Shown: one piece after another, positions 487-22,585 of the stretch
Layout: every line of letters begins with the position of its first letter
Position numbering within the stretch: position 1 is the first letter of the stretch
Assembly: GCA_012518355.1 (NCBI GenBank)
Contig: JAAYSP010000138.1
Location: 1 to 33,369, forward strand
Source: a candidate division WS1 bacterium
GTDB lineage: Bacteria; Armatimonadota; Zipacnadia; Zipacnadales; UBA11051
DNA: 33,369 nt
Direction of reading: 5' to 3'
Made by a program: the position numbers and the translations under genes
Notes under the pieces: generated by a model
The model's database searches: none
Seen by the model: only the letters and a program-made list of their open reading frames with translations
What the model was told of the DNA's origin: nothing

Positions 487-536
487 AGCCTGTGTCTCCT
501 ATAGTGCTGATGGAGATAGGAACTATCTTTTCGGCC

Positions 537-1808: not shown

Positions 1809-2236
1809 CTCAATTCACCTCTGGACACTGTGATTGGACCTGCATCTGTATTGCTGGATGGTACATGTCAAACACTGCGCCACTTGTATAGCTGCACACA
1901 GCCAGGCAATTGTCGGAATTTGCATCGTGAGCCAAGCACCGGTTGGGCGTTCCGGCCTCTCTATGCTCTCCATTTTCCTTCTATCTGTCTGTCTCACCTC
2001 CTGCCATCTGAAACAGATTGCAATCCTATCTGTGGCAGCATAACGCCTACATGTCACGGACGCGAAGCATGGCTCTGGATTTCGGCTCGACATGCTCTCA
2101 TTGCACGCTTGCGCAAAGGAAGATGAAAGTCAATACAGAAGCAGTTTCAGCCTGTACTGTGCGAAGGATTTCCTATGCACATGTCGAATACGCATTCGTA
2201 TTACGTGCTATCTGAACAACCCGAGGAAGGCTGGCT
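1809..2236. other. 428-nt intergenic region between divergent genes
   Basis: This gap separates the minus-strand aminotransferase from the plus-strand amidohydrolase, so it should hold promoters for both. On the minus strand a TTGACA (1866-1871) faces a TACAGA (1845-1850) at 15 nt. That spacing is short, and I give it little weight. I see no convincing plus-strand promoter, no RNA gene and no repeat. Short open frames here have no Shine-Dalgarno and no recognisable product. Confidence 0.4.
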
Positions 2237-3064: not shown

Positions 3065-3173
3065 AGAGGCGCTGACTGGTCGTGACCGTGGCGTAAGCGA
3101 AGCTTGGCTAGAGCATAACCGGGTGCAGCTGTGATGCAACTGTGGGATGGCGCAGAAGGGAGCACAAAATCTG

Positions 3174-4139
3174 GTGAGTATCGAAGAGATCAAGGCTTCG
3201 CAGTTGGATGCGGAGCAGTTCATAGCTGAGAAGGTGCGTGAGATTGCAGATGCGGTTGGGGATGGGGTGGCCATAAATGCACTGTCCGGGGGCGTGGACT
3301 CCTCTGTGGTGACCATGCTGGGACACAGGGCGTTGGGAGAGCGGCTGCTGAGTTACTTCGTGGACAATGGCCTGATGCGCGCGGGCGAACCCGAGCAGAC
3401 TGTGGCCATGTTCGCGGAGGTGGGGGTTCATGTGGAGTTGGTAGCTGCACGTGACCAGTTTTTTGCCGCGATTGATGGTGTGACAGATCCCGAGGAGAAG
3501 CGAGAGGCTATCACCCGCACCTTCTACCACGATGTGTTCGGCGGTCTCGTGCGAGAAAGCGGTGCCAGATACCTGCTGCAAGGCACAATTCTCACCGATA
3601 TAGATGAAACAGTGGCAGGTATCAAGCGTCAGCACAACGTTTTCGAGCAACTGGGGATCGACCCGCAGGAGGCGTTTGGCTATCGCATACTCGAGCCACT
3701 TGTGCAGCTCCGGAAGGCTGGTGTGCGGAAGATCGGTCAGGCGCTGGGACTGCCGACGAAGATCTGGGATCGGATGCCCTTCCCGGGTCCGGGATTGGCA
3801 ACGCGCATCATCGGAGTGGTCACTCCTGAGCGGGTTGATCTGGTGCGCAAAGCGACAGCTATACTCGAGAGTGAGCTAGCCGAGATAGAGGCGTTTCAGT
3901 ACATGGCGATCCTGCATGAAGATCGCGTGACCGGCTCCCGTGAGGGGCGTCGCGAGTTCGGCCAGCAGATCGAGGTACGCTGCTGGGACAGTGTAGACGC
4001 GCGCACTGCCAGGCCCACGCGATTGCCCTGGGAGTTGCTGGAGAAGCTCAGTGCGCGGATGGTCGGAGAGTTGCCCGGTGTTGTCAGTGTGACCTACAAC
4101 ATCGCCACCAAACCGCCGTCCACGATGGAGGTAGTATAG
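3174..4139 (+). CDS. Stand-alone GMP-synthase-type ATP pyrophosphatase (GuaA C-terminal/ExsB-like)
   Basis: The product corresponds to the ATP-PPase and dimerization domains of GMP synthetase and has no glutamine amidotransferase domain. SGGVDSS (about residues 38-44) is the PP-loop. YLLQGTILTD, MPFPGPGLATRIIG and the terminal YNIATKPPSTMEVV follow GuaA order. Two deviations are visible: canonical GuaA has RPFPGPGL where this has MPFPGPGL, and it ends KPPxTIEWE where this ends KPPSTMEVV. It could be the synthetase subunit of a two-subunit GMP synthase, or a paralogue adenylating another substrate (such proteins are often labelled ExsB family). I prefer the GTG at 3174, because AGAAGGGAG lies upstream and relatives begin near this point. 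An in-frame ATG at 3147 has only a weak Shine-Dalgarno. A GATase gene is not in the window. Confidence 0.8.
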   Translation: MSIEEIKASQLDAEQFIAEKVREIADAVGDGVAINALSGGVDSSVVTMLGHRALGERLLSYFVDNGLMRAGEPEQTVAMFAEVGVHVELVAARDQFFAAIDGVTDPEEKREAITRTFYHDVFGGLVRESGARYLLQGTILTDIDETVAGIKRQHNVFEQLGIDPQEAFGYRILEPLVQLRKAGVRKIGQALGLPTKIWDRMPFPGPGLATRIIGVVTPERVDLVRKATAILESELAEIEAFQYMAILHEDRVTGSREGRREFGQQIEVRCWDSVDARTARPTRLPWELLEKLSARMVGELPGVVSVTYNIATKPPSTMEVV

Positions 4140-4186: not shown

Positions 4187-5764
4187 ATGAGGCATCACCC
4201 GTCTGCTGATGTTGCTCCTGCAGTTCCAATGCTTCGTGGCGTCTCCGTGGCAGTTGCTGGTCGGCAGTTCGCTGCCTGGCATGGATTGATGACAGTGGTG
4301 GCAGTTGCCCTGGTCCTGCGTTTATGGGGCCTGGGCAACCGCAGTTTTTTCGGCGATGAGGTATACTCGCTGCAAATCGCCGAACAGAAGACTGCTGCGC
4401 AACTGCTGCACCATGCACAGAAGCTGGAGCGTCATCCCCCCCTTCCGCATCTGATCTCCCGTGTCATCTACCTGGCCGGTGCGCGTGGCGAGTTCCAGTG
4501 GCGGTTGTTTGGCGCCTTCTGCGGAGTTGCGATAGCCGCACTGGCGTTTCTAGTGCCACTGTACTTCGGCGCTCCCCAACTGAGCCTGCCTGCGGGTATA
4601 CTTGCTGCAACCGCGCCCATGGGAGTGCTGTTCAGCCAGGTCAACCGCTGGTACCCACTTGCTGGAGCGCTGCTGGGGTTGGCCATTCTGTGCACAGTGA
4701 TAGGTGCCAGGAGAGGGAGTCTGGGGGCATGGATAGCCGCCGGTCTTGCCCTGGCCCTGGCCTTCTACACCGTGTATTTGGCGGCTGCGGTCGGAGCGGT
4801 CATACTGCTGATGGCTCTGGTGCACTTGCTGCGTCGTCGGGCGGAGTTGCGTGGCTGGATGTGGGCGGTGGCGGTAACAGTGCTGTGCACGGCTCCATGG
4901 CTACCGTATTTCCTGTGGATGCTGCGCGAGGGGAAAGTTCAACTCGATCCGGCACAGACTGCTCTCTTTGCTCTGGGCAAAGCGCTTCTCTTGCTGCAGA
5001 ATCTCGCAGTAGGCCCTACCGTCCTGCCATGGAGCTGGGCGGTGAACTTGTCGGCGGCGGCGCTGTATCTCATGCTTCTGAGGGCACTTGTCCGCAGTGA
5101 GCACGTCGAAATTCGGCGTACGAGCGCAGCAGCGGGATGGTTCATGGTGCTATGCTTTCCGATTATGTTAGTGGCATCTGCATCATCAGCCCCGCGCTAC
5201 TGGCTGGTTCTGCTGGTTCCGTGGACCATGCTGGTGGCAGGAGGGTTGGTAAGCCTGCGCTCTGCTGTTGGTCGTGGTCTGGCAGTGGCCGCACTTGCAG
5301 CACTCATAGGATATGGGTTGGTGAACCTGTACACTGTGCGGCAGTACCAGTATCTGGAGCTGGCCGATGACTGGCCAGACTTAGCTGCACAGGTACGCGT
5401 ACTGGAGCAGCCAGGCGACGAGGTGTGGACTCTAGCTTCGCCCTTCGTCTACTACTATGGTGGCGCAACCGAGTACGTCATGGATTGGGGCTGGGACCCG
5501 GATGGGCTGCGACAGCACCTGACCGCTCGCCACCCGCATCGGATCATCCTCCAGTACTCCCCGCTGAGCGGCTGGGAAGGTACCCCGTTCGAACGAGTTG
5601 CCAGGACAATCGGCGGCCAGTTGGAGGATGCAGGTTATCGGCGCCAGTGGCAGAAGCAGTGGGGACGTGATCCACAGGTGGAGATGAAGCGCCGTTATCT
5701 GCGAGGGCGTACCTTTCCCGAGTACCGACATGCCGCCGAACTGTGGGTGCATGAGCCGCAGTGA
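4187..5764 (+). CDS. ArnT/PMT-like integral membrane glycosyltransferase (GT39/GT83 type)
   Basis: This 525-residue protein has about ten hydrophobic segments in its first 360 residues and a soluble C-terminal part of about 150 residues. Near the N terminus RLWGLGNRSFFGDEVYSL carries an acidic pair in the first periplasmic loop. This is the hallmark of the polyprenyl-phosphate-sugar transferases of the PMT/ArnT superfamily (PF13231-like). These enzymes move a sugar from a polyprenyl carrier to lipid or protein at the outer face of the membrane. HPPLPHL shortly after matches the second conserved loop element. The ATG at 4187 has AGGAG 11 nt upstream. A GTG at 4175 overlaps that Shine-Dalgarno and is unlikely. 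It follows the ATP-PPase gene by 47 nt, which suggests co-transcription. Acceptor and donor are unknown. Confidence 0.82.
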   Translation: MRHHPSADVAPAVPMLRGVSVAVAGRQFAAWHGLMTVVAVALVLRLWGLGNRSFFGDEVYSLQIAEQKTAAQLLHHAQKLERHPPLPHLISRVIYLAGARGEFQWRLFGAFCGVAIAALAFLVPLYFGAPQLSLPAGILAATAPMGVLFSQVNRWYPLAGALLGLAILCTVIGARRGSLGAWIAAGLALALAFYTVYLAAAVGAVILLMALVHLLRRRAELRGWMWAVAVTVLCTAPWLPYFLWMLREGKVQLDPAQTALFALGKALLLLQNLAVGPTVLPWSWAVNLSAAALYLMLLRALVRSEHVEIRRTSAAAGWFMVLCFPIMLVASASSAPRYWLVLLVPWTMLVAGGLVSLRSAVGRGLAVAALAALIGYGLVNLYTVRQYQYLELADDWPDLAAQVRVLEQPGDEVWTLASPFVYYYGGATEYVMDWGWDPDGLRQHLTARHPHRIILQYSPLSGWEGTPFERVARTIGGQLEDAGYRRQWQKQWGRDPQVEMKRRYLRGRTFPEYRHAAELWVHEPQ

Positions 5765-5829
5765 TCTGTCGGCCTGCCTGTATCAGTCTTGTTCAGGTCT
5801 CCAGTCGCTTCCAGCGCGAAGCCGCATGG

Positions 5830-7385
5830 ATGCATCGGCAGCAGCGGCCCCGACAGGATGCCAGAGCGCTTACGGCTATCCGTCGGGCAGGAGTATCATG
5901 GGCATGTGGCTATCGCACTGGGGTCTCTGTTTTGACGGCGATCTGCTGGCATATGGCGTGATGGTGGGAGCTATCGCGGTCGCGCTGAGTAGAGAGGGCC
6001 ACGTCTCATACTCACAGTCGCCGGAGTTGACGAGCCACACGTGAGCGGCCTACTCCAGCCACCAGGGGCTGGGCCACCAACCGTTGCGAGTCAGCAGGTT
6101 CGGGTTCTGTGCGCGCATCCGCCGGTCTATACGTTGATGGTCGTCAGCGAGGCCAGTCGCGCATAGTCAACTCATGCACAACTGTGGGGCGGACGTTGGC
6201 GTATCCGTGACGCATGCACGGACGTTATCCCGGTTGATCTTCAGATGAGCTGCACCCACTCTGGTACAGCCAGCCGGTAAAGTTGCCGGAGCGCCTCCTC
6301 GAAGTTCGGCTGTATCATGACCACGCATGACCACGCAGGTTTCGCCGTGACAGGGGCCGGGTTCGTCGCCTGTGCTCCATCCCTCCGGCGGTTACAGTCC
6401 ATGTCCATACCGGTGCGGCCGTTGTGGTTCACCCACAGCGATAGCTTGAGGCCGTTTTGGCGAGGCTTTTCACACAGGGCGATGAGCTTGCTGTTACTTT
6501 CATCGCCACCCTGCCATGGAAAAGTGAAACACTATCGAAACATCCCGCATATACCGTCAGTATATCGGTAGGGGCGGGCCAGTGGACGTGGGCCGGGTTG
6601 AAGCATGGTGTCGAGGAAGGCGTCTATCGCTTCGAAGAGCAGACGCTGTAGTCACCGTCCCCACTGTGCGAGCGGACTAGCCGGTACTGGCAGTGTACAG
6701 CGGCCTGACAAAAGACGGGTTGCGCACCTGCCACAGGTAGTCCATGAACGCTTCGGGCATCGCTTGATGGCTCTGCGCCACACCCATGACTGCCGAGAAG
6801 CTGTGGATGACACTGTTTTTCGTCCCAGACCGGGTGGTGGTACAGCTCCAGCCCCGCCGGTCCGGCACGGCGAACGCTGCCGGATGCTCCAGCCCGAAGA
6901 ACCAGTCGCCTGTGAACACCGGATAGCTGCAGCCGGGCTGCTCGGCATAGGTGTCGCGGCCCTCCTGCTGCTCGACATCCGGGCCCCACGCAGACCGTAG
7001 CCGCCCCGACATATCGGCTATGGCAGATTGCCCCACAGCTCTATCTACAGCTAGCCTGGTGTGGGAGTGCTGACCGATGCCTGCAGCCGCACCTGCTTAC
7101 GCACCCATGGCTGTTCCCCGTCAAGTCAGTAGCGGACAGGTACCTGTATATCATACCTATTGCTGTGCCGGGTGAAGGCGATTTGCCGCTTGTCCGTTTC
7201 AATCGCCAGCAAGTCGAAGTCTTCTTGCATCAGCGCGTGGCTGTTCATGCTGACAGCAAATGCAGGGCAATCGAAGTGCGGCTCTGTTCTGAGGGAAGGT
7301 TATGTGCCTGGAGCGTGTTTCCGATCCGGTTTGAGGTGACTGTAATACGAATCCTGCGGCTCATGTCATGTAACTATAGGCTCAT
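5830..7385 (-). pseudogene. Decayed glycoside hydrolase (GH36/alpha-galactosidase-like) pseudogene
   Basis: Pieces of one protein can be read in order on the minus strand across all three frames. A GGAGG (complement of 7395-7399) precedes an ATG at 7385, but codon 4 is TAG. The reading resumes at 7364 as MSRRIRITVTSN. Next comes ALMQEDFDLLAIETDKRQIA, then an in-frame TGA (7126-7128) directly followed by LDGEQPWVRKQVRL. Further on are GDWFFGLEHPAAFAVPD (about 6910-6860), ELYHHPVW, SFSAVMGVAQSHQAMPEAF (about 6800), LKLSLWVNHNGRTGMDMD (about 6450-6390), VVMIQPNFEEALRQLYRLAV (about 6330-6265), NGWWPSPWWLE, a TAG, then HVWLVNSGDCEYETWPSL (about 6050-6000). The SPWWL and SGDxEYxxWPSL blocks resemble alpha-galactosidase-like GH36-related enzymes. 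That family name is from memory. The 3' limit near 5830 is approximate. Confidence 0.75.
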
Positions 7386-7655
7386 CGTCTATGTCCTCCG
7401 CCGTTGTGTGTCTGATGCGGCTTACTGCTGGGTTCACTATGGCTTTTCCCTACATCTCTTTTCTACATACTTGCGAGAGGGATTCGTGTGTATGGTGAGA
7501 GGCAGGGAAGAGGTTTTCGTGCTCGCTGCCAGATGCATCAGAGCGTTTTCATACACCTATATCCTTGCGGCGCAAACCCATGCATGTGGCGGATGGTGCA
7601 GGGGGAGAGAGCTTCTCACTTTCTGCAGTGGCGACAGACAATTATGTGTGGCCCG

Positions 7656-10133: not shown

Positions 10134-11201
10134 ATGCGCATTGCTGTAGATGCGATGGGCGGAGACCATGCACCTGAGGAGATCGTCCCTGGAGCGCTGG
10201 CAGCGGCCCAGATAGTTGATGCCGAGATCTGTCTGGTGGGCGATGAGATACAACTCAACGCACTACTGTCAGACACCACTGGCGCTGTTGCCCGTGCCGC
10301 CGTTGACACCAGACGAGCGGGCCGCGTTACAGTCGTCCACGAGCCGGGTGTGGTGGGCATGGATGAGAGCCCGCGAGCGGCCCTGCAGCGCAAGCGGCGC
10401 TCATCGATGGCTGCGTGCGTAGACATGGTGCGCGACGGTGAAGCCGATGCTGCCGTGTCAGCGGGCAATAGCGGTGCCTTCATGGCCCTGGCCACCACGC
10501 GTCTGCGCAACATCGCCGACATAGACCGACCCGCCATCGCCATCACCATACCAACTAAAACCGGCAAAGCGATACTGCTTGACGCAGGGGCTAACGCCGA
10601 TTGCAGGTCCGAGCACCTGGCACAATTTGCCACCATGGGCATTTGCTATGCCGAACACTTGCTGGGCCTGGACAGCCCTCGAGTAGCCACACTGAACATC
10701 GGCGAAGAGCAGTGCAAAGGCAATGCTTTGACCCAGGCAACCTACAGTCTACTGGCCTCTGCCCCAATCAACTTTGTTGGTCATGTCGAGCCTAACGCCA
10801 TACTGGATGGCCATGTGGATGTGATTGTCGCTGACGGCTTTGTAGGCAACGTAGTATTGAAGACCATAGAGGCTTCGCTTCAGTTTTTCAACGATGGCAT
10901 CAAGGCAGGCATTGCCAGCAGCCACCTGGCGCGGCTTGGAGCCTGGCTCATGAGGCCGGTCTTCCGTAGCCTTGCAGCGAAGTGTGACTGGGCCGAGTAC
11001 GGAGGCGCGTTGCTACTAGGCGTAAACGGAGTATGTGTGGTCAGCCACGGACGTTCAGACCGCCGGGCAATCCGTGAGGCCATAGTGGTCGCTGCCAACG
11101 CCGTTGAGCATGACATCGTCGAGGAGATGCGCCAGTCGGTACAACTGCTTTCCGCATTGCCGGCATCGACGGAAGTACTCTCCAACTCGCCGCAGGTATG
11201 A
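10134..11201 (+). CDS. plsX: Phosphate acyltransferase PlsX
   Basis: PlsX converts acyl-ACP and phosphate to acyl-phosphate, the acyl donor for PlsY in phospholipid synthesis. The 355-residue protein begins MRIAVDAMGGDHAP, the diagnostic start. It also has AVSAGNSGAFMA, LLDAGANADCRSEHL and GFVGNVVLKTIEA, all conserved in the family. The length is normal. I place the start at the ATG at 10134; the frame is open further upstream, but that part overlaps rpmF and is not PlsX-like. The Shine-Dalgarno is weak (GAG), which fits translational coupling to rpmF 8 nt upstream. fabH follows after 197 nt. Confidence 0.96.
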   Translation: MRIAVDAMGGDHAPEEIVPGALAAAQIVDAEICLVGDEIQLNALLSDTTGAVARAAVDTRRAGRVTVVHEPGVVGMDESPRAALQRKRRSSMAACVDMVRDGEADAAVSAGNSGAFMALATTRLRNIADIDRPAIAITIPTKTGKAILLDAGANADCRSEHLAQFATMGICYAEHLLGLDSPRVATLNIGEEQCKGNALTQATYSLLASAPINFVGHVEPNAILDGHVDVIVADGFVGNVVLKTIEASLQFFNDGIKAGIASSHLARLGAWLMRPVFRSLAAKCDWAEYGGALLLGVNGVCVVSHGRSDRRAIREAIVVAANAVEHDIVEEMRQSVQLLSALPASTEVLSNSPQV

Positions 11202-11398
11202 CCACATCGTCAGCTAGAGACATTGCGCCGTCATGCCGGTTCCAGCCGGTTGGTCGACACACCCGCTTCTCCCCACCATTGCCTGCTGCCACCTGAAAAA
11301 ACGCGCAGGGATAGAGTGTGACCGCGAACTGCCAAACCGTTCGATTAGGTTCAAATATGACTGGATTGACAGCAGGCGAGGAGTAACTGAGCGATATT

Positions 11399-12391
11399 AT
11401 GGATTTGCGTGGATGTCGTATCGCTGGCGTAGGCTCTTATGTGCCCGAAGAGGTACTCACCAACGCTGATTTGGAAAAAATAGTTGACACCACTGATGAG
11501 TGGATTGTCTCCCATACCGGCATACGCGAGCGCCGAGTAATACCTGATGACCAGAACACTTCCGACCTCGCAGCCGAGGCCTCCAGGCGCGCTCTAGACG
11601 ACGCTGGAGTTCAGGCCGACCAGGTGCAACTTATCATCGCCGCCACTGTCACCTCTGACACCGTCTTCCCAGGCACTTCCGCTATCCTGGAGCACAAACT
11701 CGGCGCCAAGCGGGCAGCCACCTTCGATCTGGTCACTGGCTGCACTGGCTTTGTTGACGGTATAGTTACCGGTGCCCAGTTCATCCAGACCGGAGCTTAC
11801 GACCGCGTGCTGGTAGTTGCGGCGGAGGCGCTCACTCGGATCACCAACTGGACCGACCGCAGCACCTGTGTACTGTTCGGTGACGGGGCAGGGGCCGCGG
11901 TGCTGGAGCCAACGGATCCTGGTGCTGGGCTGCTAGGATATGCTATGGACACTCAGGGATTTGCCGGTGAGCATCTGTGCATACCCTCCAGCGGTTCAGC
12001 CTGGCCGCCTGACGAGAAAGCCATAGCCGAACATGCGACCAAGCTGTACATGAACGGACATGAAATCTTCAAGATGGCTGTGCGAGGCGTACCCTATATC
12101 GCCCGCAAGGCCATGAAAAATGCCGGTATCACCGAAGAAGACGTGGACTGGGTGGTCATGCACCAGGCCAACCAGCGCATCCTCGACGCCGCTGCAGATC
12201 GGCTGCACATCGCTCCGGAAAAGGTGATCTCAAATCTGGAGAGATATGGCAACACTTCTGCCGCCTCTATGGGCATAGCGCTCGACGAACTATATCGCGA
12301 CGGGCGGCTGCAAAACGGCCAGCATGTGTTGATGGTGGGCTTCGGCGCCGGCTTCTGTCTCGCCGGTGCGGTAATACGCTGGGACAAGTAG
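11399..12391 (+). CDS. fabH: Beta-ketoacyl-ACP synthase III
   Basis: FabH condenses an acyl-CoA primer with malonyl-ACP to start fatty-acid synthesis. The 330-residue protein keeps the whole Cys-His-Asn triad. Cys115 is in VTGCTGF, His255 in VVMHQANQRI and Asn285 in ERYGNTSAAS. The Cys motif differs from the common AACAGF, with Thr-Gly before the Cys, which may affect the primer pocket. The C-terminal GFGAGFCLAGAVIRW is typical. GCGAGGAG lies about 15 nt before the ATG, farther than usual. The 197-nt gap from plsX shows no clear promoter. The acyl-CoA dehydrogenase gene follows after 82 nt on the same strand. Confidence 0.95.
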   Translation: MDLRGCRIAGVGSYVPEEVLTNADLEKIVDTTDEWIVSHTGIRERRVIPDDQNTSDLAAEASRRALDDAGVQADQVQLIIAATVTSDTVFPGTSAILEHKLGAKRAATFDLVTGCTGFVDGIVTGAQFIQTGAYDRVLVVAAEALTRITNWTDRSTCVLFGDGAGAAVLEPTDPGAGLLGYAMDTQGFAGEHLCIPSSGSAWPPDEKAIAEHATKLYMNGHEIFKMAVRGVPYIARKAMKNAGITEEDVDWVVMHQANQRILDAAADRLHIAPEKVISNLERYGNTSAASMGIALDELYRDGRLQNGQHVLMVGFGAGFCLAGAVIRWDK

Positions 12392-12473: not shown

Positions 12474-13622
12474 ATGGACTTTGCTTTCACCGAGGATCAG
12501 CAAGAGCTTTTCGACTATGTACGCGAGTTTTGTGACGAAAAGCTCAAGCCGTACGCCACAGAAGTAGACCAGAAACGTGAGTATCCGTGGGATCAGGTCA
12601 ACATGATGCGTGAGATGGACCTGATGGGCATACCAGTCTCCGAAGAGTACGGTGGCGCAGGCCTCGGTTTCCTCGAGTGGGCTGTCATCGGCGAGTTGCT
12701 CTCAGGCGCCTGTACCACTACTGGTGCGGTCTATGGTGCCCACATGCTGGCCGAATACCCCATCATGTTTTTCGGTACCGACGAGCAGAAGGAAAAGTAC
12801 CTCACGCCTCTGGCCACCGGCGAATCGGTAGGAGCCTTCGGACTGACCGAGCCGGGCGCCGGTTCTGACGCTGGGTCTGTCAGAACCAGTGCGGTAAAAG
12901 ACGGCGACGACTACATCCTCAACGGCACCAAGATCTTCATCACCAACGGTGGCGACGCCGAGATTTACGTGGTCGTTGCCAATAGTCGGCCCGAAAGAGG
13001 CATGCGTGGGATCACCGCCTTCATCCTCGAAAAAGGCATGGAAGGCTTCGAGTTCGGCAAAAACGAAGAGAAGATGGCTTATAAGTCACTGTCAAACCGC
13101 GAACTGATCTTCGACAATTGCCGCGTACCGGCCGAAAACATCCTGCACCGTGAAGGGCGCGGCTTCCAGGTGGCCATGGAAACACTGCGAGTAGGGCGAA
13201 TCGGCATGGCTATCGGCGCCGTGGGCCTGTCGCAGGCCGCTTACGATGCCGCCGTATCCTATGCACTCCAGCGTGAGCAGTTCGGTCAGCGGATCGCCAA
13301 CTTCCAGCTCATCCAGGCGCATCTGGCTGATATGGCTACCGAGCTTCAGGCCGGTCGTCTGCTCACCTACCTTGCCGCATGGCGCAAAGACCAGGGCCTG
13401 CCTTTCGAGAAGGAAGCGGCCATGGCCAAGCTGAAGACCTCGGAGGTCTGTGCTGCAGTAACCTCCAAGTCTGTTCAGATCCACGGCGGCTACGGCTACT
13501 GCTCGGACTATCCCGTAGAGCGCTACATGCGCGAGTCCAAGCTGTTCGAGATTGTCGAGGGCACATCGGAAATTCAGCGCCTGGTCATCGCCGGCCAACT
13601 GCTGAAAGAGGCGCAGATCTAA
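12474..13622 (+). CDS. Acyl-CoA dehydrogenase (Bcd/short-chain type)
   Basis: This 382-residue flavoprotein has the full ACAD fold. GLTEPGAGSD (123-132) is the first family signature. IFITNGG lies in the FAD/substrate beta domain, and QREQFGQRIANFQLIQ and QIHGGYGY are in the C-terminal helical domain. VEGTSEIQR (361-369) places Glu362 as the catalytic base. Such enzymes interconvert acyl-CoA and trans-2-enoyl-CoA and pass electrons to Etf. With its own etfB and etfA directly downstream it resembles butyryl-CoA dehydrogenase/Etf or caffeyl-CoA reductase modules, which run in the reductive direction. A GGAGG-type Shine-Dalgarno precedes the ATG. Its place between fabH and fabD suggests a role in fatty-acid synthesis, but acyl-CoA versus acyl-ACP specificity cannot be read from the sequence. 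Confidence 0.94.
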   Translation: MDFAFTEDQQELFDYVREFCDEKLKPYATEVDQKREYPWDQVNMMREMDLMGIPVSEEYGGAGLGFLEWAVIGELLSGACTTTGAVYGAHMLAEYPIMFFGTDEQKEKYLTPLATGESVGAFGLTEPGAGSDAGSVRTSAVKDGDDYILNGTKIFITNGGDAEIYVVVANSRPERGMRGITAFILEKGMEGFEFGKNEEKMAYKSLSNRELIFDNCRVPAENILHREGRGFQVAMETLRVGRIGMAIGAVGLSQAAYDAAVSYALQREQFGQRIANFQLIQAHLADMATELQAGRLLTYLAAWRKDQGLPFEKEAAMAKLKTSEVCAAVTSKSVQIHGGYGYCSDYPVERYMRESKLFEIVEGTSEIQRLVIAGQLLKEAQI

Positions 13623-13707
13623 CTCAACGCGGTATCGATGGGATGACCCGGTGGCCGTTTATCGCGGCTGCCGGGACCGATCTGCATGTCCTCAGGAGGA
13701 CAGTTCC

Positions 13708-14496
13708 ATGAGAATAATTGTATGCATAAAACAGGTTCCGGATACCACTGAAGTCAAGATCAATCCGGAAACCGGTACACTGGTGCGCGACGGGGTACCA
13801 AGTATCATCAACCCCTTCGACGAAAACGCCATCGAGGCCGGCCTGCAGTTGGTGGAGGAGCATGGTGGAGAAGTGATAGTCATCACCATGGGACCGCCGC
13901 AGGCCGAGCAGGCCTTGCGTGATGCTCTGGCTATGGGCGCCAATCGGGCCATCCTGATAAGCGACCGTGCCTTCGCAGGGGCTGACACCCTGGCCACATC
14001 ATACGTACTGGCTCAGGCTGTTGAGCGTATCGGCGATTTCGACCTGATATTCTGTGGCAAGCAGGCCTTCGACGGAGACACAGGCCAGGTAGGCCCCGGC
14101 CTTGCCGAGCATCTGGGAATCCCGCAGATAACTTATGCCATCGACATCGAAGAGGTCACTGACAGAGAAATTCAGGTGCGGCGACTGCTCTCCGATGGCT
14201 TTGAGGTAGTCCGCACCAGGCTTCCGTGTCTGATCACTGCAGTCAAGCAGCTAAACGAGCCCAGAATGCCGGGGCTCAAGAGCCGGATGAAGGCCAAAAA
14301 GGCCGAAGTAGAGCAGTGGACCTGTGACTGTATCGGAGCGCTTGCCGATCGCTGCGGCCTGGATGGTTCGCCCACCAGCGTCATGCGTGTCTTCAGCCCT
14401 ACCCGCCAGGTCGAAGGTGAGAGGATCGAGGGCGAGACGGCAGAAGAAAAGGTCTGCCGCCTCATAGACAAACTTCGTGATGCACAGGTGTTGTAG
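13708..14496 (+). CDS. etfB: Electron transfer flavoprotein beta subunit
   Basis: The 262-residue protein begins MRIIVCIKQVPDTTEVKI, a standard EtfB start. It carries GKQAFDGDTGQVGPGLAEHL, the conserved loop in the middle of the protein. The DGDTxQVGP form is, as I recall, that of bifurcating and Bcd-linked EtfBs, whereas mitochondrial-type EtfB has DDDxNQTG. AKKAEVEQW near residue 200 matches the recognition-loop region that docks to the dehydrogenase. AGGAGGA lies 7 nt before the ATG at 13708. The gene sits 85 nt after the acyl-CoA dehydrogenase and 51 nt before etfA. With EtfA it carries FAD and shuttles electrons between a low-potential partner, NADH and the dehydrogenase. Confidence 0.94.
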   Translation: MRIIVCIKQVPDTTEVKINPETGTLVRDGVPSIINPFDENAIEAGLQLVEEHGGEVIVITMGPPQAEQALRDALAMGANRAILISDRAFAGADTLATSYVLAQAVERIGDFDLIFCGKQAFDGDTGQVGPGLAEHLGIPQITYAIDIEEVTDREIQVRRLLSDGFEVVRTRLPCLITAVKQLNEPRMPGLKSRMKAKKAEVEQWTCDCIGALADRCGLDGSPTSVMRVFSPTRQVEGERIEGETAEEKVCRLIDKLRDAQVL

Positions 14497-14547
14497 CCTT
14501 TCAACCGGTCAGTTCCGGTTGGCTTCTGAAAAGTGGAGGATTTTTCT

Positions 14548-15744
14548 ATGCCCATTTACATAGTCGCTGAGGAGTGCAAAGGCTGCAAGCTGTGTCTGCC
14601 TGCATGTCCGTATGGTGCCATCGAAATGGTGGATGGGGTAGCGGTGCTGACCGACGACTGCACACAGTGCGGCGCATGTGTCAGTAGCTGCAAGTTTGGG
14701 GCAATCAAGCTCGAGCGTGTCGAGATGTGCGATGTGGACACAAGCCAGTATCGCGGGGTGTGGGTGGTCGCCGAGGTGAATGACGGGCGACTGGCTGATG
14801 TCACTCTGGAGCTTCTCGGTGAGGGACGCCAACTTGCCGACCAACTGGGCGAACAGCTCAGCCTGGTGCTGGTGGGCCACGAGGTAGAACCGCTGGCCGA
14901 GGTGGCCGCCGCCTATGGGGCGGACAAGGTCTATCTTGCCCAGGCTCCGGAGCTGGAGCGATACCGCACCGGTCCGTTTACCGATGTGATAACCGGCATC
15001 ATCAACCGCTACAAGCCGGAGATAGTGCTCATCGGCGCCACTGGCATGGGCCGTGATCTGGCGTCACGTATCGCCGCCCGTATCAGTGCAGGTCTCACGG
15101 CAGACTGCACCGGACTTGAGATCAGCGTTGAAGACCGCCTGCTCTACCAGACCCGTCCGGCGTTCGGTGGCAACATCATGGCCACCATCGTCTGCCGCCA
15201 TGCCCGTCCCCAGATGGCCACAGTCCGATCGCACGTGTTCCTGAAGCCCGAACCGGACCACAACCGCACCGCAGAAGTGGTGGAGGTGCCGGTTTCGCTC
15301 GACGAAAAGAGCATCATGACCAGGATCGTCGAGGTCATCAAGGAAAACGTGGATGCAGCTGCTAACCTACAGGATTCCGACATCATCGTTTCCGGTGGGC
15401 GCGGGCTGAAAAAAGCAGATAATTTCGAACTGATTCGCGATCTTGCCGATGCCATAGGAGGCGCAGTTGGGGCTTCCCGGGCGACGGTAGACGCAGGCTG
15501 GATCCCCGCCTATCACCAGGTCGGGCAGACCGGCAAGACTGTGCACCCCAAGCTCTATATCGCCTGTGGCATATCCGGGGCTGTCCAGCACCTGGCCGGT
15601 ATGGGCTCTTCAGACTGTATCGTGGCCATCAACAGCGACCCCTCGGCTCCGATTTTCGAGGTTGCCCACTTCGGTATCGTCGGCGACCTCTTCGAGGTGG
15701 TTCCGGCTCTGACCAGGGCGATTCGCGAAGAGTTCGGAGGCTAG
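14548..15744 (+). CDS. etfA: Electron transfer flavoprotein alpha subunit with N-terminal 2[4Fe-4S] ferredoxin domain
   Basis: The 398-residue protein is longer than plain EtfA because residues 1-60 form a two-cluster ferredoxin. Cys10, 13, 16 and 20 bind one cluster and Cys38, 41, 44 and 48 the other. The last Cys of the second set is followed by Lys instead of the usual Pro. The rest is Etf[21 protein letters not shown] in domain I, then the FAD signature [20 protein letters not shown] near residues 326-345 and [19 protein letters not shown]. Ferredoxin-fused EtfA is known from the caffeyl-CoA reductase of Acetobacterium and lactate dehydrogenase Etf complexes, where it links Etf to ferredoxin during bifurcation or confurcation. 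GGAGGA lies 7 nt before the ATG. fabD starts 4 nt after the stop codon. Confidence 0.94.
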
Positions 15745-15747
15745 GTG

Positions 15748-16689
15748 ATGCTCGCTTTCATATGTCCGGGCCAGGGCTCACAGAGCGTCGGTATGGCGCA
15801 GGATCTGTATGAGCAGTACCCAGTTGCGCGGGAGTTGCTCGACGAAGTGGCCGCTGGGGTGGACTTCCCGTTGCTGCCGACTATGTTTGACGGTCCGGCC
15901 GATGCACTAACGGCGACTGAAAACGCGCAACCGGCCCTGGTGGCTCACTCGCTTGCAGTGGCAGCAGTGCTGCAAGCCGAGGGCATCGAGCCCCAGATGG
16001 TAGCGGGTCACTCGCTGGGCGAGTACGCAGCTCTGGCAATCGCTGGTGTATTCACAGCGGCAGATGCGGTGCGTCTGGTGCGCAAGCGGGGTCTGCTTAT
16101 GGCCGAAGCCGGTCGCGAGGTCGGTGGCACGATGGCTGCCATAATCGGCCTGGAAGAGTCTGCATTACGTGAGGCCCTGGCGCAGGTCAGTGAGGGTATC
16201 GTGGGCATCGCTAACTTCAACTCCGAGGACCAGACAGTCATCTCCGGAGAAGTCGAGGCGGTGCAGATAGCCGGAAAGCTCGCCACTGAGGCGGGTGCCA
16301 GGCGCGTGATACCGCTGCAGGTCAGCGGTGCGTTCCACTCACCGCTCATGCAGTCGGCAGCAGAGCAGCTTACTGAGGCCCTCGCGCAAGTCGAATTCGC
16401 GAATGCCACAGTGCCAGTCATCACCAACTGTGACGCCGCGTCGCACACTGACGCTGACGAGCTCAAGCAGGGGTTGGTGCAGCAGTTGACCCACACTGTA
16501 CTATGGCGCCAATCGGTTGCGACCATGACCGAGGCAGGCGTGGATGCTTTCATAGAGGTCGGTGCCGGTACCGTGCTGAGCAAGATGATGCAGAGATCCA
16601 GGATAGATGCCGGAATCCATAACAGTGCCAACGTAGACGCCCTGCGCAACAGTGTAATCGAACTGGGCGGACTGAAACCAACTCAGTGA
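15748..16689 (+). CDS. fabD: Malonyl-CoA:ACP S-malonyltransferase
   Basis: FabD loads malonate onto ACP. The 313-residue protein begins MLAFICPGQGSQSVGM, with the GQGSQ oxyanion motif. It has GHSLGE with nucleophile Ser89, and SGAFHSPLM with the catalytic His near residue 200. GAGTVLSKM near the C terminus is also standard. The start is the ATG at 15748, with GGAGG (15736-15740) 7 nt upstream; an in-frame GTG one codon earlier is too close. Only 3 nt separate it from the etfA stop codon, so the Etf module and fabD are surely co-transcribed. fabG follows 11 nt after its end. Confidence 0.96.
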   Translation: MLAFICPGQGSQSVGMAQDLYEQYPVARELLDEVAAGVDFPLLPTMFDGPADALTATENAQPALVAHSLAVAAVLQAEGIEPQMVAGHSLGEYAALAIAGVFTAADAVRLVRKRGLLMAEAGREVGGTMAAIIGLEESALREALAQVSEGIVGIANFNSEDQTVISGEVEAVQIAGKLATEAGARRVIPLQVSGAFHSPLMQSAAEQLTEALAQVEFANATVPVITNCDAASHTDADELKQGLVQQLTHTVLWRQSVATMTEAGVDAFIEVGAGTVLSKMMQRSRIDAGIHNSANVDALRNSVIELGGLKPTQ

Positions 16690-16700
16690 GGGAGAGTAGG

Positions 16701-17450
16701 ATGCTGAATTTGACTGACCGGGTAGCCATGATCACTGGTGGTGCAGGTGGTTTGGGGTTGGCTCTGGCAGACAGGCTTGCCACTCTTGGCGCAAATGTGG
16801 TGGTAAACGATATACCTCAGGCTGAGGAGGCCGCTGAGCGCGTCGCTGAGATGGTGAGGAAGCACGGGCGCAAGGCGCTGGTGGCACTGGGCAGTGTGAC
16901 CAGTGCAGATGATGTGGGCAAGACGGTTGACTCCGTGCTTGAGGAGTTCGGCAAGATAGATATCCTGATAAACAACGCCGGTATCACGCGTGACGGGCTG
17001 CTCATACGCATGTCTGAACAAGACTGGGATATGGTGCTGGAGATCAACCTCAAGGGCTCTTTTCTATGCACCAAAGCCGTAGCGCGTCCGATGATGAAGG
17101 CCCGGTACGGTCGCATCGTCAACATCGCCTCGGTGGCCGGTGTGATGGGCAACGCGGGGCAGGCCAACTACTCGGCTTCGAAGGGTGGCCTGATCGCCCT
17201 GACCAAGACCACGGCGAAGGAGCTCGCCAGCAGGAGCATCACCTGCAACGCAGTCGCCCCCGGTTTCATCGAGACCAGGATGACCGAGGTGTTGGACGAG
17301 CAAGTCCGTGCCCAGTGGCTACAGAACATACCGCTGGGGCGTCCGGGGACACCCGAAGACGTAGCTGATGTTGTCGCTTTCCTGGCTTCAGATGCCGCCG
17401 CTTATGTCACCGGGCAGGTGCTGAACATTGACGGTGGGCTGATTATGTAG
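16701..17450 (+). CDS. fabG: 3-oxoacyl-ACP reductase FabG
   Basis: This NADPH-dependent short-chain dehydrogenase reduces 3-oxoacyl-ACP to 3-hydroxyacyl-ACP. The 249-residue protein has the Rossmann motif TGGAGGLG (12-19), NNAG (91-94), catalytic Ser144, and YSASK with Tyr157 and Lys161. It ends NIDGGLIM, the usual FabG terminus. GAGGGAGAG lies just before the ATG at 16701. A GTG at 16686 overlaps the fabD stop codon and is less likely. NITRD-like GITRDGLL at 94-101 is characteristic of true FabG rather than other short-chain dehydrogenases. The acpP gene follows after 93 nt that contain a strong hairpin. Confidence 0.96.
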   Translation: MLNLTDRVAMITGGAGGLGLALADRLATLGANVVVNDIPQAEEAAERVAEMVRKHGRKALVALGSVTSADDVGKTVDSVLEEFGKIDILINNAGITRDGLLIRMSEQDWDMVLEINLKGSFLCTKAVARPMMKARYGRIVNIASVAGVMGNAGQANYSASKGGLIALTKTTAKELASRSITCNAVAPGFIETRMTEVLDEQVRAQWLQNIPLGRPGTPEDVADVVAFLASDAAAYVTGQVLNIDGGLIM

Positions 17451-17543: not shown

Positions 17544-17783
17544 GTGGCACTGTACGAGAAAGTAAAAGAAATAGTAGTCCGTGAACTGTCCGTTCCCGAA
17601 AGCCAGGTCACTGAGGACGCCACTTTTCAGGGTGACCTGAACGCCGATTCGCTCGACGTTGTCGAGTTGGTCATGGCTTTTGAGGACGAGTTCGATGTGG
17701 AGATCCCCGACGAGGAGGCCGAAGGCATCACAACTGTGCGCCAGGCTGTCGAGTATCTCGAGAAGAAAGCCGGCGGTGCTTAG
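17544..17783 (+). CDS. acpP: Acyl carrier protein
   Basis: ACP carries growing acyl chains on a 4'-phosphopantetheine arm. The 79-residue acidic protein has [13 protein letters not shown], where Ser36 is the modification site, and VEIPDEEAE in helix III. The start codon is GTG with GGAGG upstream (ctggaggtcattgcc). ACP is usually among the most abundant proteins, so a GTG start and a hairpin-containing leader may tune its level. Directly after the stop codon lies a short GC hairpin with a T-run. fabF follows on the same strand. Confidence 0.97.
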
Positions 17784-17925: not shown

Positions 17926-17948
17926 ATCTATTATCCGGAGACAAATGC

Positions 17949-19187
17949 ATGGACACACGTGTAGTCATCACTGGTGTGGGGTCGCTATCGTGCTTCGGAC
18001 CGGGCAGAGAACGTTTGTGGGAGGCTCTCTGCAACGAAGAGTGCGGTATAGACACCATAACCCACTTTGACGCAAGCGAGTACAAATCTCAGATCGCGGC
18101 TGAGTGCAGCAGAGACATAGACATCTCTGAACGCGTGGACCCCAAGCTCGCCAAGCGTGCGGACCGCTTCACACAGTATGCCATGTACTGTACTGATGAA
18201 GCTATGCAGCAAGCCGGCTTGCAGGTGACCGACGAAAACGCCGACGAAATTGGTGTGCTCATCGGGTCCGGCATCGGCGGCATGGAGACCTGGGAGAAGC
18301 AGTTTACGACTCTGCTGCGAAAAGGTCCGAGACGAGTAAGCCCTTTTCTCGTGCCTATGATGATCGTGGACATGGCGGCCGGGCTTGTCTCTATTCAGAC
18401 CGGTGCCAAGGGCCCCAACCTAGCGGTAGTAACTGCTTGTGCCAGCGCTACCCATGCCATCGGTGAAGCGACGGCTATCATACGCCGTGGGCAGGCGCAA
18501 GCCATGATCACCGGTGGCAGTGAGACGGTGGTCTCTCCGACAGCCGTGTCGGGCTTCTCTTCGGCCGGGGCCGTGTCGTTTCGCAACGATGACCCGAAAC
18601 ACGCTTGTCGCCCGTTCGATCGCGACCGCGATGGCTTCGTCATCGGAGAGGGCTGCACCATCATGCTACTCGAGGAGTACGAACACGCACGCGCGCGTGG
18701 CGCCGAGATACTGGGCGAGATCCTCGGTTTCGGCATGAGCGGCGATGCCTACCATATCACAGGTCCGTCTCCAACCGGCGAAGGGGCAGTGCGTGCCATG
18801 AAGGCTGCGCTGAAGGATGCGCGTCTCAATGCCGATGATATAGACTACATAAACGCTCATGCGCCGGGCACACCAGACGGCGACTCGATGGAAGCTCACG
18901 CTATCCTGGGGCTGTACGGTGACCAGTCGCCTCCGGTCAGCTCCACCAAAGGCAATCACGGGCATCAGCTTGGTGCCACCGGCGCCACAGAGCTCATCAT
19001 GTCTCTATACATGGCCGAACACAGCTACATACCGCCCACCTTGAACTGCGACAGTCCCGAGGACTTCATGACCTTCGATATCGTGCGCGGGTCAGGCAGA
19101 GAGATGGCTATGAACACCATCATGAGCAACTCTTTCGGTTTCGGTGGACACAACGCAGTGCTCATTGCCAACCGTCGAGTACAGTAG
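17949..19187 (+). CDS. fabF: Beta-ketoacyl-ACP synthase II
   Basis: FabF elongates acyl-ACP with malonyl-ACP. The 412-residue protein has catalytic Cys164 in VTACASATHAIG, His304 in INAHAPGTPDGDS and His339 in KGNHGHQLGATGA, giving the Cys-His-His set of elongating synthases. MNTIMSNSFGFGGHNAVLI at the C terminus is typical. The first His motif reads NAHAPGTPDGD instead of the usual NAHGTSTPxGD, a small departure. The ATG at 17949 has GGAG 8 nt upstream; an in-frame upstream ATG at 17886 lies inside the structured leader and is not supported. rnc follows after about 116 nt. Confidence 0.95.
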   Translation: MDTRVVITGVGSLSCFGPGRERLWEALCNEECGIDTITHFDASEYKSQIAAECSRDIDISERVDPKLAKRADRFTQYAMYCTDEAMQQAGLQVTDENADEIGVLIGSGIGGMETWEKQFTTLLRKGPRRVSPFLVPMMIVDMAAGLVSIQTGAKGPNLAVVTACASATHAIGEATAIIRRGQAQAMITGGSETVVSPTAVSGFSSAGAVSFRNDDPKHACRPFDRDRDGFVIGEGCTIMLLEEYEHARARGAEILGEILGFGMSGDAYHITGPSPTGEGAVRAMKAALKDARLNADDIDYINAHAPGTPDGDSMEAHAILGLYGDQSPPVSSTKGNHGHQLGATGATELIMSLYMAEHSYIPPTLNCDSPEDFMTFDIVRGSGREMAMNTIMSNSFGFGGHNAVLIANRRVQ

Positions 19188-19303
19188 CGGTGAGCGGTAG
19201 GTTTGCCCTTCGACCATCGTAGGTCACACAGAACCGGACGTATCACGGGCCAGGCAGCGGCACGAGTATGCTGTTGGTGCCCCGTTCCGGAGAAACGGAT
19301 TAC

Positions 19304-20029
19304 ATGAACGTCTTTGACGCGGAACAGGTTCGCGATGAACTCGAACTGCCGCACGCTCAGGACCCGGAGTTGCTGCGCCAGGCGTTCGCACATGGCTCTT
19401 ACGTGCGAGAGCAGGGGCTTGAGGCGATAGCATCGAACCAGCGTCTGGAGTTTCTCGGAGACGCTGTCCTCGACATGGTACTTGCGCATGAGCTCTACAT
19501 CAGTAACCCTGACTTACCTGAGGGTGAGCTGACGAAGCTGAAGGCCGCTCTCGTGAGAGCCGAGACGCTGGCCCATGTGGCCCGCGAGCTGAACCTGGGC
19601 AAGTACTTGCTGTTGGGGCGTGGCGAAGAGGAGACAGGCGGACGTGGGAAGCCTTCCCTACTGGCCGACTGTCTGGAGGCGCTTATCGCCGCTATCTACC
19701 TGTCGGGCGGATGGCCTGCTGCCAGCGACTTCATCATGCGCCATCTGTGGCCCCTGGTTGCTGAGATCGAGGCCGGTGAGCACATCTTCGACCACAAAAG
19801 CACGCTGCAGGAGACCATCCAGGCACATGGCGGCAACCCGCCGCACTACATCACGCTCCAGACGCTTGGCCCCCCGCATCGGCGTGTTTTCGAGGTCGAG
19901 GTCAGGCACAACGGACAAGTGCTCGGCACGGGACGCGGGGCCAGCAAACAGGAAGCTGAGCAGGATGCAGCGCGTGATGCCCTGGTATGTAGCGATGAGT
20001 GGCTGGCACACTTGACCGGGTCAGCATAG
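19304..20029 (+). CDS. rnc: Ribonuclease III
   Basis: RNase III cuts double-stranded RNA in rRNA precursors and mRNA leaders. The 241-residue protein has the signature NQRLEFLGDAVL (45-56) and the second acidic motif ADCLEALIAAIYLSGG, with Asp122 and Glu125. A C-terminal dsRNA-binding domain (about 163-232) includes HKSTLQE and GASKQEAEQDAARDAL. All metal-binding acids are present. I chose the ATG at 19304, with GGAG 11 nt upstream; an in-frame ATG at 19268 without a Shine-Dalgarno would add 12 residues. fabF-rnc adjacency is common in several phyla. The leader hairpins of fabF and pnp in this window are possible targets. Confidence 0.95.
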   Translation: MNVFDAEQVRDELELPHAQDPELLRQAFAHGSYVREQGLEAIASNQRLEFLGDAVLDMVLAHELYISNPDLPEGELTKLKAALVRAETLAHVARELNLGKYLLLGRGEEETGGRGKPSLLADCLEALIAAIYLSGGWPAASDFIMRHLWPLVAEIEAGEHIFDHKSTLQETIQAHGGNPPHYITLQTLGPPHRRVFEVEVRHNGQVLGTGRGASKQEAEQDAARDALVCSDEWLAHLTGSA

Positions 20030-20131
20030 GCAGCGCCTCATCATATCGGCTCCGACGCCCTCCCAGGCCTCTCCTGGCTATCCATGCAGCATTTGCAGGA
20101 CTCTGTGCCACGACTTGCGAAACCTCTACTC

Positions 20132-22585
20132 ATGACCCGAATCCATCGTCATCAGAAGCCACAGGTACGTCCCGTATGGGAGGCAGGCACCTCGGCAACC
20201 GCGGTGGCAAGCCGACTGTCGTGGGTGCTGCTGTTGTTGCTGCTCTCACTGGCCGTGTGTGCTGCTGGAGACAGGCCGGGACCGTTCACTTTCGTCTACG
20301 GCCTGGACAGAGGCGGGACACTTGCAGACCTGCAGCACTTCGGTGTCAACAGCCTCTACATGGACCTGCAGCCGGACGAACTCGAAGACTTGACGCTCGT
20401 GCGAGAGCAGGTGAGAGAGGCGGCCGCGGCTGGATACCATGTGATAGTCGGTCTGCCGACCACGGAGTTGGGGCGCTATCGCGTTTCTCCGTACTCTGAA
20501 CAGTATCGTAACGCGGCCACAGAGCTGATACACCGTGTGATTCTGCAGTTGCGTGACGAGACCGGCATCAGCGCGTGGGCCACCGGACACTACCTGGAGA
20601 AGCATCTGAGCTACGACGACCGCGATTTCCGCCAGTTTCTCCAGGATCGCTACGGAAGCCTGGAGCGGCTGAATCGGATGTGGGAGACGAGCTTTTCACT
20701 CTGGGGCGCCGTTGACCAGGAGACTGCTCTCAACGCAGATCCCGACATGCCATTCGGTATCGGGCGGGCAGCGGTTGATGTAGCCGATTACCGCCATTTT
20801 GCCTTCGGGGCAGTCATGTCCCACTGGGCCGAGACAGTCAAATCGTTGGACGAATCGCGTCCGCTGATGACCGGGTGCGTGACGCTGTACCGGAGCTTGC
20901 CGGCGATCCCGGAGACTTATGACATCATCGCGGTAAGTCTGCCGCCAGACGTGATCAAACCTTCGGCCGAACGGTACGGCGACGGACTCACCCACAACGT
21001 AGACGGGATAGATCTGGCGCGCAGAGGCGGAAGATTTGAGGTCATCCCAGTACTGCGAGTACCGCTGCCTCATGAGCCGGGCTACTCGAGGGGGCTGCGC
21101 GACTGGATACTCGCCGCCGATCTGCATGGGGCCCGCGGCATCGCCATCGAGAACTGGCAGCGATATGTGCAGTATCCTGAGATTGCTGCACGCAGCGTTC
21201 GGCTGCTGAACGAAACATGGCCTCTGGTAGACTTCCGGGGGGAGCCGCAGCCCCCTGTGGCAGTGCTCTACTCTCCCTATGCAGAGGGTGTTCAGGTGGT
21301 CGGCCAGCCGGTGTACGGGCACCTGAAGGGATTTGGCAGTGGTACGCCAGGTGAACTGATGGCAGGATTGCGCCAGGGCACATGCTTTGGACTGACGGAT
21401 TATCTGGCAGTGGAGGATCTGGGCCGTGTCAACCTGAGCCGTTATGGATTGATCATCGCCCCCGCCGCCCTGAGCCTCAACGAATCGCAGAGCCAACTAC
21501 TGTCTGACTACGTGCGTGCCGGTGGTGCACTGATCGCTGACCTGGGCTTCGGGCTGCATCATACAGGTACCTGGCTTCGGCTTCCGGGGCCCGGATGGGG
21601 CCTGTTCGGGATAAGTGAACTTCGCCCCGGCGAGGCTCGGGCAGGTGATCTGACTCTCAGCGGCTCGATGGACGAATTTCCGCACCTGAGCCATGGGATG
21701 AAAACTACAGGGACCTTCCGAGCCACAGTTGGAGGAAGCGGGGGTGGACCTCGCACGTATCAAGCGGGCACCTACAGTGTCAGTTCGTACACCGCCTACG
21801 CGTCGGTGATGCAGGGGGCGCTGGGACTGGCGGTACTCAGGACCGACACCTCCGGAGATCAGGGCCCGGCTATAGCAGGTCTGATCTGCAACCGTTATGG
21901 ACGAGGTCTGGGGCTTTTCGCCACGCACCAATTGTATTCGCACTGGCCTCTGAGTGACCGGGTCAGCACCGCACTGCACTACGACTTGATACGTCGGCAA
22001 GCCAGTTGTGAGCTTGTAGACGGCCCCTTCCTACGCTCCGATGTCGCCATCAGCCTGGAACAGGACCGCGTCAGGCTCTTCAACTGCTCAGATAGGCAGG
22101 CGGTACATAGCGTGGCCTTGTACGGGCAGGGTGACAGGCTGATCGAAGGGGTGGTGACGGTAAACCATGCGGCATATGGTGGCCAGCCACAGCGACAGTT
22201 CTTCGAGGCCCATGTCCCATCGCACAGCATCCGCAACCTGCGGCTTACGGGCATCACCGCCCAGCCCTACGAAGCACACGTGAGTGTGGTGATCGCCGAC
22301 TGCTCGGAGCCTCTGGTACGTCTGGTGGCTGCCGGTCCGGGAGCGCGGCCGGCACCCACCCGTGAAAATCCGCATCAATTTCAGCGGCCCGAGGCGGCTG
22401 TCAGGGTGCGGTTTGCAGTCCGTGATGATGGGACGTATGCAGTAGCGGACGGCTCACGGCATCAGGTGACAATCCGACCTGACCGCGGCAACAGCCGCAC
22501 CCTCGAGGTAGTTGCCTCCCAGGGACAGATCAGCTTCACAGCAGATATCTATCGCGATCAGATTACCATCAGCCCAATGCACTGA
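20132..22585 (+). CDS. Exported GH42-like protein with GATase-like domain, catalytic site uncertain
   Basis: The 817-residue protein has a hydrophobic segment (about 31-47) after a charged N terminus, so it is exported or anchored. A TIM-barrel-like part follows. FRQFLQDRYGSLERLNRMWE (166-185) is the stretch seen in GH42 beta-galactosidases after their cysteine cluster. Residues about 385-490 (PVAVLYSP to GGALIADL) look like the GH42 trimerization domain, with LIIAPAALSLNESQ. GH42 enzymes normally have Asn-Glu as acid/base just before that stretch. Here the equivalent reads AWATGHYLEKHL, without Asn-Glu, so activity is doubtful or altered. No convincing Shine-Dalgarno supports any start; an ATG at 20084 is the alternative. 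About 100 nt separate it from rnc. Confidence 0.6.
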   Translation: MTRIHRHQKPQVRPVWEAGTSATAVASRLSWVLLLLLLSLAVCAAGDRPGPFTFVYGLDRGGTLADLQHFGVNSLYMDLQPDELEDLTLVREQVREAAAAGYHVIVGLPTTELGRYRVSPYSEQYRNAATELIHRVILQLRDETGISAWATGHYLEKHLSYDDRDFRQFLQDRYGSLERLNRMWETSFSLWGAVDQETALNADPDMPFGIGRAAVDVADYRHFAFGAVMSHWAETVKSLDESRPLMTGCVTLYRSLPAIPETYDIIAVSLPPDVIKPSAERYGDGLTHNVDGIDLARRGGRFEVIPVLRVPLPHEPGYSRGLRDWILAADLHGARGIAIENWQRYVQYPEIAARSVRLLNETWPLVDFRGEPQPPVAVLYSPYAEGVQVVGQPVYGHLKGFGSGTPGELMAGLRQGTCFGLTDYLAVEDLGRVNLSRYGLIIAPAALSLNESQSQLLSDYVRAGGALIADLGFGLHHTGTWLRLPGPGWGLFGISELRPGEARAGDLTLSGSMDEFPHLSHGMKTTGTFRATVGGSGGGPRTYQAGTYSVSSYTAYASVMQGALGLAVLRTDTSGDQGPAIAGLICNRYGRGLGLFATHQLYSHWPLSDRVSTALHYDLIRRQASCELVDGPFLRSDVAISLEQDRVRLFNCSDRQAVHSVALYGQGDRLIEGVVTVNHAAYGGQPQRQFFEAHVPSHSIRNLRLTGITAQPYEAHVSVVIADCSEPLVRLVAAGPGARPAPTRENPHQFQRPEAAVRVRFAVRDDGTYAVADGSRHQVTIRPDRGNSRTLEVVASQGQISFTADIYRDQITISPMH

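Follow-up and report, generated by a model that had tools for sequence, protein, structure and literature searches.

Which enzyme reduces the enoyl intermediate in a type II fatty-acid synthase (FAS-II) whose gene cluster carries an acyl-CoA dehydrogenase-family flavoenzyme (ACAD), EtfB and EtfA, and no recognisable enoyl reductase? Every cycle of fatty-acid synthesis ends with enoyl reduction, a step at which antibiotics act (triclosan, isoniazid); the bacterial enoyl reductases known are SDRs and FabK-type flavoenzymes. The stretch of DNA that raises the question (hereafter, the window; 33,369 nucleotides) is the entire contig C54 of a draft MAG, G000, of 3.09 Mb and 93.7% completeness. Its relevant features, all on the + strand, are as follows.

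10134..11201, +: plsX, phosphate acyltransferase (TIGR00182, over cut-off)
11399..12391, +: fabH, beta-ketoacyl-ACP synthase III (TIGR00747, over cut-off)
12474..13622, +: ACAD, acyl-CoA dehydrogenase-family flavoenzyme, 382 aa, proposed enoyl reductase (AcrC best NCBIfam model, below cut-off)
13708..14496, +: etfB, bifurcating type as judged from its motifs DGDTGQVGP, RAFAG and SPT, 262 aa (best PDB match CarD, 6FAH)
14548..15744, +: etfA, CarE-like with N-terminal 2[4Fe-4S] ferredoxin domain, 398 aa (match to CarE, 6FAH_A; TRPAFGG)
15745..16689, +: fabD, malonyl-CoA:ACP transacylase (TIGR00128, over cut-off; junction read)
16701..17450, +: fabG, 3-oxoacyl-ACP reductase of the Y-x3-K type (TIGR01830, over cut-off)
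17544..17783, +: acpP, acyl carrier protein (TIGR00517, over cut-off)
17946..19187, +: fabF, beta-ketoacyl-ACP synthase II (TIGR03150, over cut-off)
19268..20029, +: rnc, ribonuclease III, downstream neighbour (named from sequence; position conserved in relatives)

A first-pass annotation had read the genes from fabH to fabF in this order on one strand, and the reading held: ORF analysis and profile matches gave rpmF-plsX-fabH-ACAD-etfB-etfA-fabD-fabG-acpP-fabF-rnc, with the ACAD, etfB and etfA ORFs uninterrupted between fabH (11399–12391) and fabD (15745/15748–16689). Its statement that the window lacks fabI, fabK and fabZ was likewise borne out, the sole significant match being FabG itself. 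The TAG stop of etfA (15742–15744) is followed by GTGATG, so that fabD starts 0 or 3 nt further on, and a GGAGG lies within the 3' end of etfA ahead of that start. Signals in a promoter and terminator scan were not clearly over chance. Directly 3' of rnc, at 20084–22585, lies a gene for a GH42-like glycosidase, whose homologues are likewise placed in many relatives; positions 3147–4139 encode a GMP synthase C-terminal/PP-loop protein of 330 aa, with no attached glutaminase domain.

The best NCBIfam model for the ACAD was acryloyl-CoA reductase AcrC (NF042972), at 455.5 bits against a curated cut-off of 640. Among solved structures, both its sequence and its predicted fold (pLDDT 87) placed it nearest to the Bcd subunits of bifurcating complexes (5OL2 and 4L1F), with the same ACAD fold, 50% identity by structure alignment and the catalytic glutamate kept; the SDR fold with Y-x6-K that marks FabI/FabL was not found. 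All 15 aligned relatives keep the catalytic residue, Glu362 of VEGTSEIQR. The whole clade departs from the Bcd type at residues surrounding the active site (Q248G, T358F, Y361V); these changes would fit an altered substrate, but they are common to clustered and non-clustered ACADs (defined below) and are only suggestive. The window further differs from the Bcd-EtfAB systems in that Bcd-type EtfA has no ferredoxin domain and in that no butanoate fermentation genes stand alongside its module.

The Etf subunits point to the caffeyl-CoA reductase CarCDE of Acetobacterium woodii (6FAH). The best solved match of EtfA was CarE (6FAH_A; full length, 433 bits), and eight cysteines arranged as two CxxCxxCxxxC motifs form an N-terminal domain for two [4Fe-4S] clusters, a CarE-type fusion that the first-pass annotation had overlooked. 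The TRPAFGG of EtfA aligns with CarE and, by alignment only, supplies the arginine equivalent to that at N5 of the beta-FAD. Bifurcating Etfs are marked in EtfB by a beta-FAD motif DGDTAQVGP, an NAD motif RxFxG and SPT (PMC9232219); EtfB of the window, whose best PDB match was CarD, has DGDTGQVGP, RAFAG and SPT. Nearly all relatives have the beta-FAD motif as DGDTxQV[GP]P (EGDT in L068), and the NAD motif varies among clustered relatives (e.g. RALAG), all of which keep its arginine except L070. Most non-clustered relatives (L075–L078, L080) lack that arginine (DGAFRG, DPASRG, DPIIRG). CarCDE thus shares with the window an ACAD, an EtfB with the beta-FAD and NAD motifs and an EtfA with the N-terminal two-[4Fe-4S] domain, but the window ACAD is nearer to Bcd than to CarC, and CarCDE serves caffeate respiration whereas the window module is embedded in a fab operon. 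AcrABC of Clostridium propionicum provided the best NCBIfam model for ACAD and EtfA and the second-best for EtfB, although all three fell below the curated cut-offs. From these features the Etf would be of the CarCDE-like NADH/ferredoxin type, not a respiratory one, and the motifs together with the ferredoxin domain make it likely that ACAD-EtfBA bifurcates. The published description of Zipacnadia reports that the class lacks Rnf, and fatty acids go unmentioned in it.

Relatives were counted when their ACAD was at least 62% identical to that of the window, which gave 23 genomes with the module inside the fab cluster (clustered; the window's own included) and seven with it elsewhere (non-clustered), all of them draft MAGs. 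The arrangement is therefore not confined to one strain: 23 genomes from six families (f1, f2, f3, f4, f6 and f10) of one Armatimonadota class, probably Zipacnadia, have ACAD-etfB-etfA conserved among their FAS-II genes. The module sits between fabH and fabD wherever the contig spans both, and the etfA-fabD gap is −4 to +33 nt in 14 of the 19 other loci with both genes. Chance adjacency was excluded by the recurrence of this order in 22 genomes besides the window's own. The seven non-clustered relatives belong to families f5, f7, f8, f9 and f25, and in the ACAD tree the clustered members form one well-supported clade (100/99) that takes in a single non-clustered member, from f9. In one f8 genome (G130, locus L082) a true fabI (approx. 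5050–5811) lies directly upstream of, and on the same strand as, ACAD (6238–7389), etfB and etfA, away from the other fab genes, which may represent an intermediate or backup state.

This depth of conservation, at family and class level, bears on the plainer reading offered at the outset, that of a co-regulated degradation enzyme. An ordinary butyryl-CoA dehydrogenase, engaged in butyrate formation or beta-oxidation and co-transcribed with the fab genes by happenstance, would agree with the protein family and nearest structures of the ACAD, and 11 of the 23 clustered genomes encode at least one thiolase. Yet family and protein searches found the window ACAD to be the only one in its genome, and no thiolase was found in the other 12 clustered genomes. 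We consider such a role very improbable and have rejected it as the main explanation.

Gene absence was assessed by family and protein searches. FabI and FabL were called by a relaxed search followed by a check of catalytic spacing (Y-x6-K against Y-x3-K); the E. coli FabI query had matches in 92 of 151 genomes. The window's genome, 94% complete, yielded no FabI/FabL, its seven SDRs all being FabG-like with Y-x3-K; no protein of the NMO family (FabK, FabX) over the cut-off; and no FabV. The genome-wide check called for by the first-pass annotation thus covered the FabI/FabL, FabK and FabV types and found no other enoyl-ACP reductase among them. A FabI/FabL-type SDR was missing from 21 of the 23 clustered genomes by the same procedure, a result for which MAG incompleteness cannot account, and FabV from all 20 in which it was sought; FabK/NMO matches in clustered genomes were sub-threshold, with one sizeable NMO match in G014. 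The exceptions are two f2 genomes (G014 and G090), which encode a true FabI, as does, together with the module, the Ca. Zipacnadia MAG of locus L119. Among non-clustered relatives FabL-like Y-x6-K proteins occur in f7, while f8 and one f25 genome have FabI, so that FabI/FabL is present in four of seven non-clustered against two of 23 clustered genomes (Fisher p = 0.016, ignoring relatedness); three genomes (G055, G134 and G114) are without FabI although in them the module is not part of the fab cluster.

The dehydratase step is accounted for. FabZ is encoded once in the window's genome, on contig C61 away from the window, and in all 30 genomes examined (23 clustered, 7 non-clustered), and therefore only the enoyl-reduction step is missing. 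For the same reason the suggested reversed beta-oxidation-like elongation, in its full form, does not apply: the pathway is a FAS-II lacking just its enoyl reductase. The window's genome also has a second fabG-fabF pair (L002, contig C184, positions 1–3696), preceded on the same strand by genes for a lipoyl-domain-like protein and an M48-like peptidase.

Four Armatimonadota genomes (G038, G068, G073 and G088) have neither FabI/FabL, a full FabK match, FabV nor an ACAD match, and an unrecognised enoyl reductase may therefore exist in the phylum. It could be this enzyme, conceivably of the FabMG or MDR type given the scope of our searches, that performs the FAS step, leaving ACAD/Etf another part in lipid metabolism, for instance to produce or saturate chains that are unsaturated or branched, or to recycle acyl groups oxidatively; coexistence of FabI and the module in f2 would agree with that. 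We regard this as unlikely, however: across six families no redox enzyme other than this module and FabG is fixed in the operon, and genomes that have the module there tend to lack FabI/FabL.

A scan of named genomes found three fab-linked ACAD loci outside Armatimonadota. The order is fabG-acpP-fabF-x-ACAD-etfB-x-etfA in an Omnitrophota genome (L153), plsX-fabH-fabD-fabG-acpP-fabF-ACAD in isolate SKW262 (L182) and plsX-fabH-fabD-fabG-acpP-fabF, then rnc, then ACAD in Edwardsbacteria (L190). Their ACADs form a clade separate from that of the clustered Armatimonadota, and FAS-II is associated with this type of ACAD in at least a second instance. A search for FabI/FabL found no Y-x6-K reductase in the three genomes. 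Between etfB and etfA the Omnitrophota locus carries a gene resembling uroporphyrinogen-decarboxylase-type methyltransferases (10994–11851). A further set of Armatimonadota ACADs (group B, L084–L112; 42–47% identity), mostly single orphans, makes up another clade; those included in the tree cluster with the ACADs that are fab-linked in Edwardsbacteria, Omnitrophota and SKW262. Most group B genomes are without FabI, and one (G036, family f24) has a FabL-like Y-x6-K SDR. No conserved neighbours of these ACADs were found, and group B was left out as evidence from context for that reason.

The gene orders in other phyla are also relevant to a role in primer supply, whereby the module, as an acryloyl- or crotonyl-CoA (or branched enoyl-CoA) reductase, would furnish FabH with propionyl-, butyryl- or branched acyl-CoA and a different enoyl reductase would serve elongation. 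Such a role would suit the fabH found directly upstream in every clustered locus with that side sequenced, the acryloyl-CoA reductase model as best NCBIfam match, the short-chain CoA enzymes as nearest structures and the retention of FabI, available for elongation, in f2. In other phyla, however, the ACAD comes after fabF and not fabH, and primer supply leaves unexplained the lack of FabI/FabL in 21 of 23 genomes, in which FabV and full FabK matches were likewise absent where searched for. We give it a small chance only.

We therefore favour, with a probability of roughly 0.6, the reading that enoyl reduction in this type II fatty-acid synthase is carried out by the ACAD/EtfB/EtfA complex, in place of FabI, FabK, FabL or FabV. 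Counted in its favour are the position in 23 genomes, the absence of FabI/FabL in 21 of 23, FabZ in 30 of 30, the single ACAD, the contrast of 4/7 with 2/23 in FabI/FabL, the fab-linked ACADs of other phyla, the CarE match and the EtfB motifs. Against it stand FabI together with the module in f2 and L119, the Armatimonadota with neither system, the genomes with an unclustered module and no FabI, the short-chain CoA enzymes as closest structures, and the origin of all data in draft MAGs. An enoyl reductase of fatty-acid synthesis has to accept chains from C4 to C16–18. The enoyl-reductase interpretation of the first-pass annotation is accordingly upheld in part: the lack of any known FabI, FabL, FabK or FabV and the conserved order speak for it, and we go no further because f2 genomes encode FabI alongside the module.

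We infer that the complex works in the reductive direction, with ACP as carrier, on all chain lengths and with bifurcation; by analogy with known complexes it would probably be driven by NADH and reduce ferredoxin. As in CarCDE and Bcd-EtfAB, NADH would reduce the beta-FAD on EtfB, from which one electron would pass through the ferredoxin domain of EtfA to ferredoxin and the other via the alpha-FAD to the ACAD flavin, which would then reduce the trans-2-enoyl thioester supplied by FabZ. The net reaction per cycle would be enoyl-ACP + 2 NADH + 2 Fd(ox) -> acyl-ACP + 2 NAD+ + 2 Fd(red). More tentatively, and at somewhat less than even odds, every FAS-II elongation cycle in these organisms may bifurcate, enoyl-ACP reduction by ACAD-EtfAB driving ferredoxin reduction, and FAS-II may have taken up related ACADs on more than one occasion, in Armatimonadota as well as in Omnitrophota/Edwardsbacteria.

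The enzyme complex is of a known kind. In the literature searched we found neither a description of it serving FAS-II as enoyl reductase nor any ACAD-type enoyl-ACP reductase. A review of enoyl-ACP reductases gives FabI, FabL, FabK, FabV and FabMG, with no ACAD-type enzyme among them (PMC9260719). These would share with ACAD-EtfBA the step proposed here and are unrelated to it in fold. Precedent for ACADs acting on carrier-protein thioesters is found, according to NCBIfam descriptions, in MbtN and the prolyl-PCP dehydrogenases RedW/PigA, which, unlike the proposed reductase, oxidise their substrates and are less similar to the window ACAD (54–257 bits against 455).

If the favoured reading is true, ACAD-Etf would be a further, unrelated solution to enoyl reduction and the first coupled to ferredoxin, and it would account for the making of lipids in probably anaerobic, uncultured lineages without recognisable FabI. 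An ACAD encoded by an anaerobe need not, then, imply fatty-acid degradation, which calls for caution in annotation. Should the complex bifurcate, the synthesis of membrane lipids would hand low-potential electrons back to the cell.
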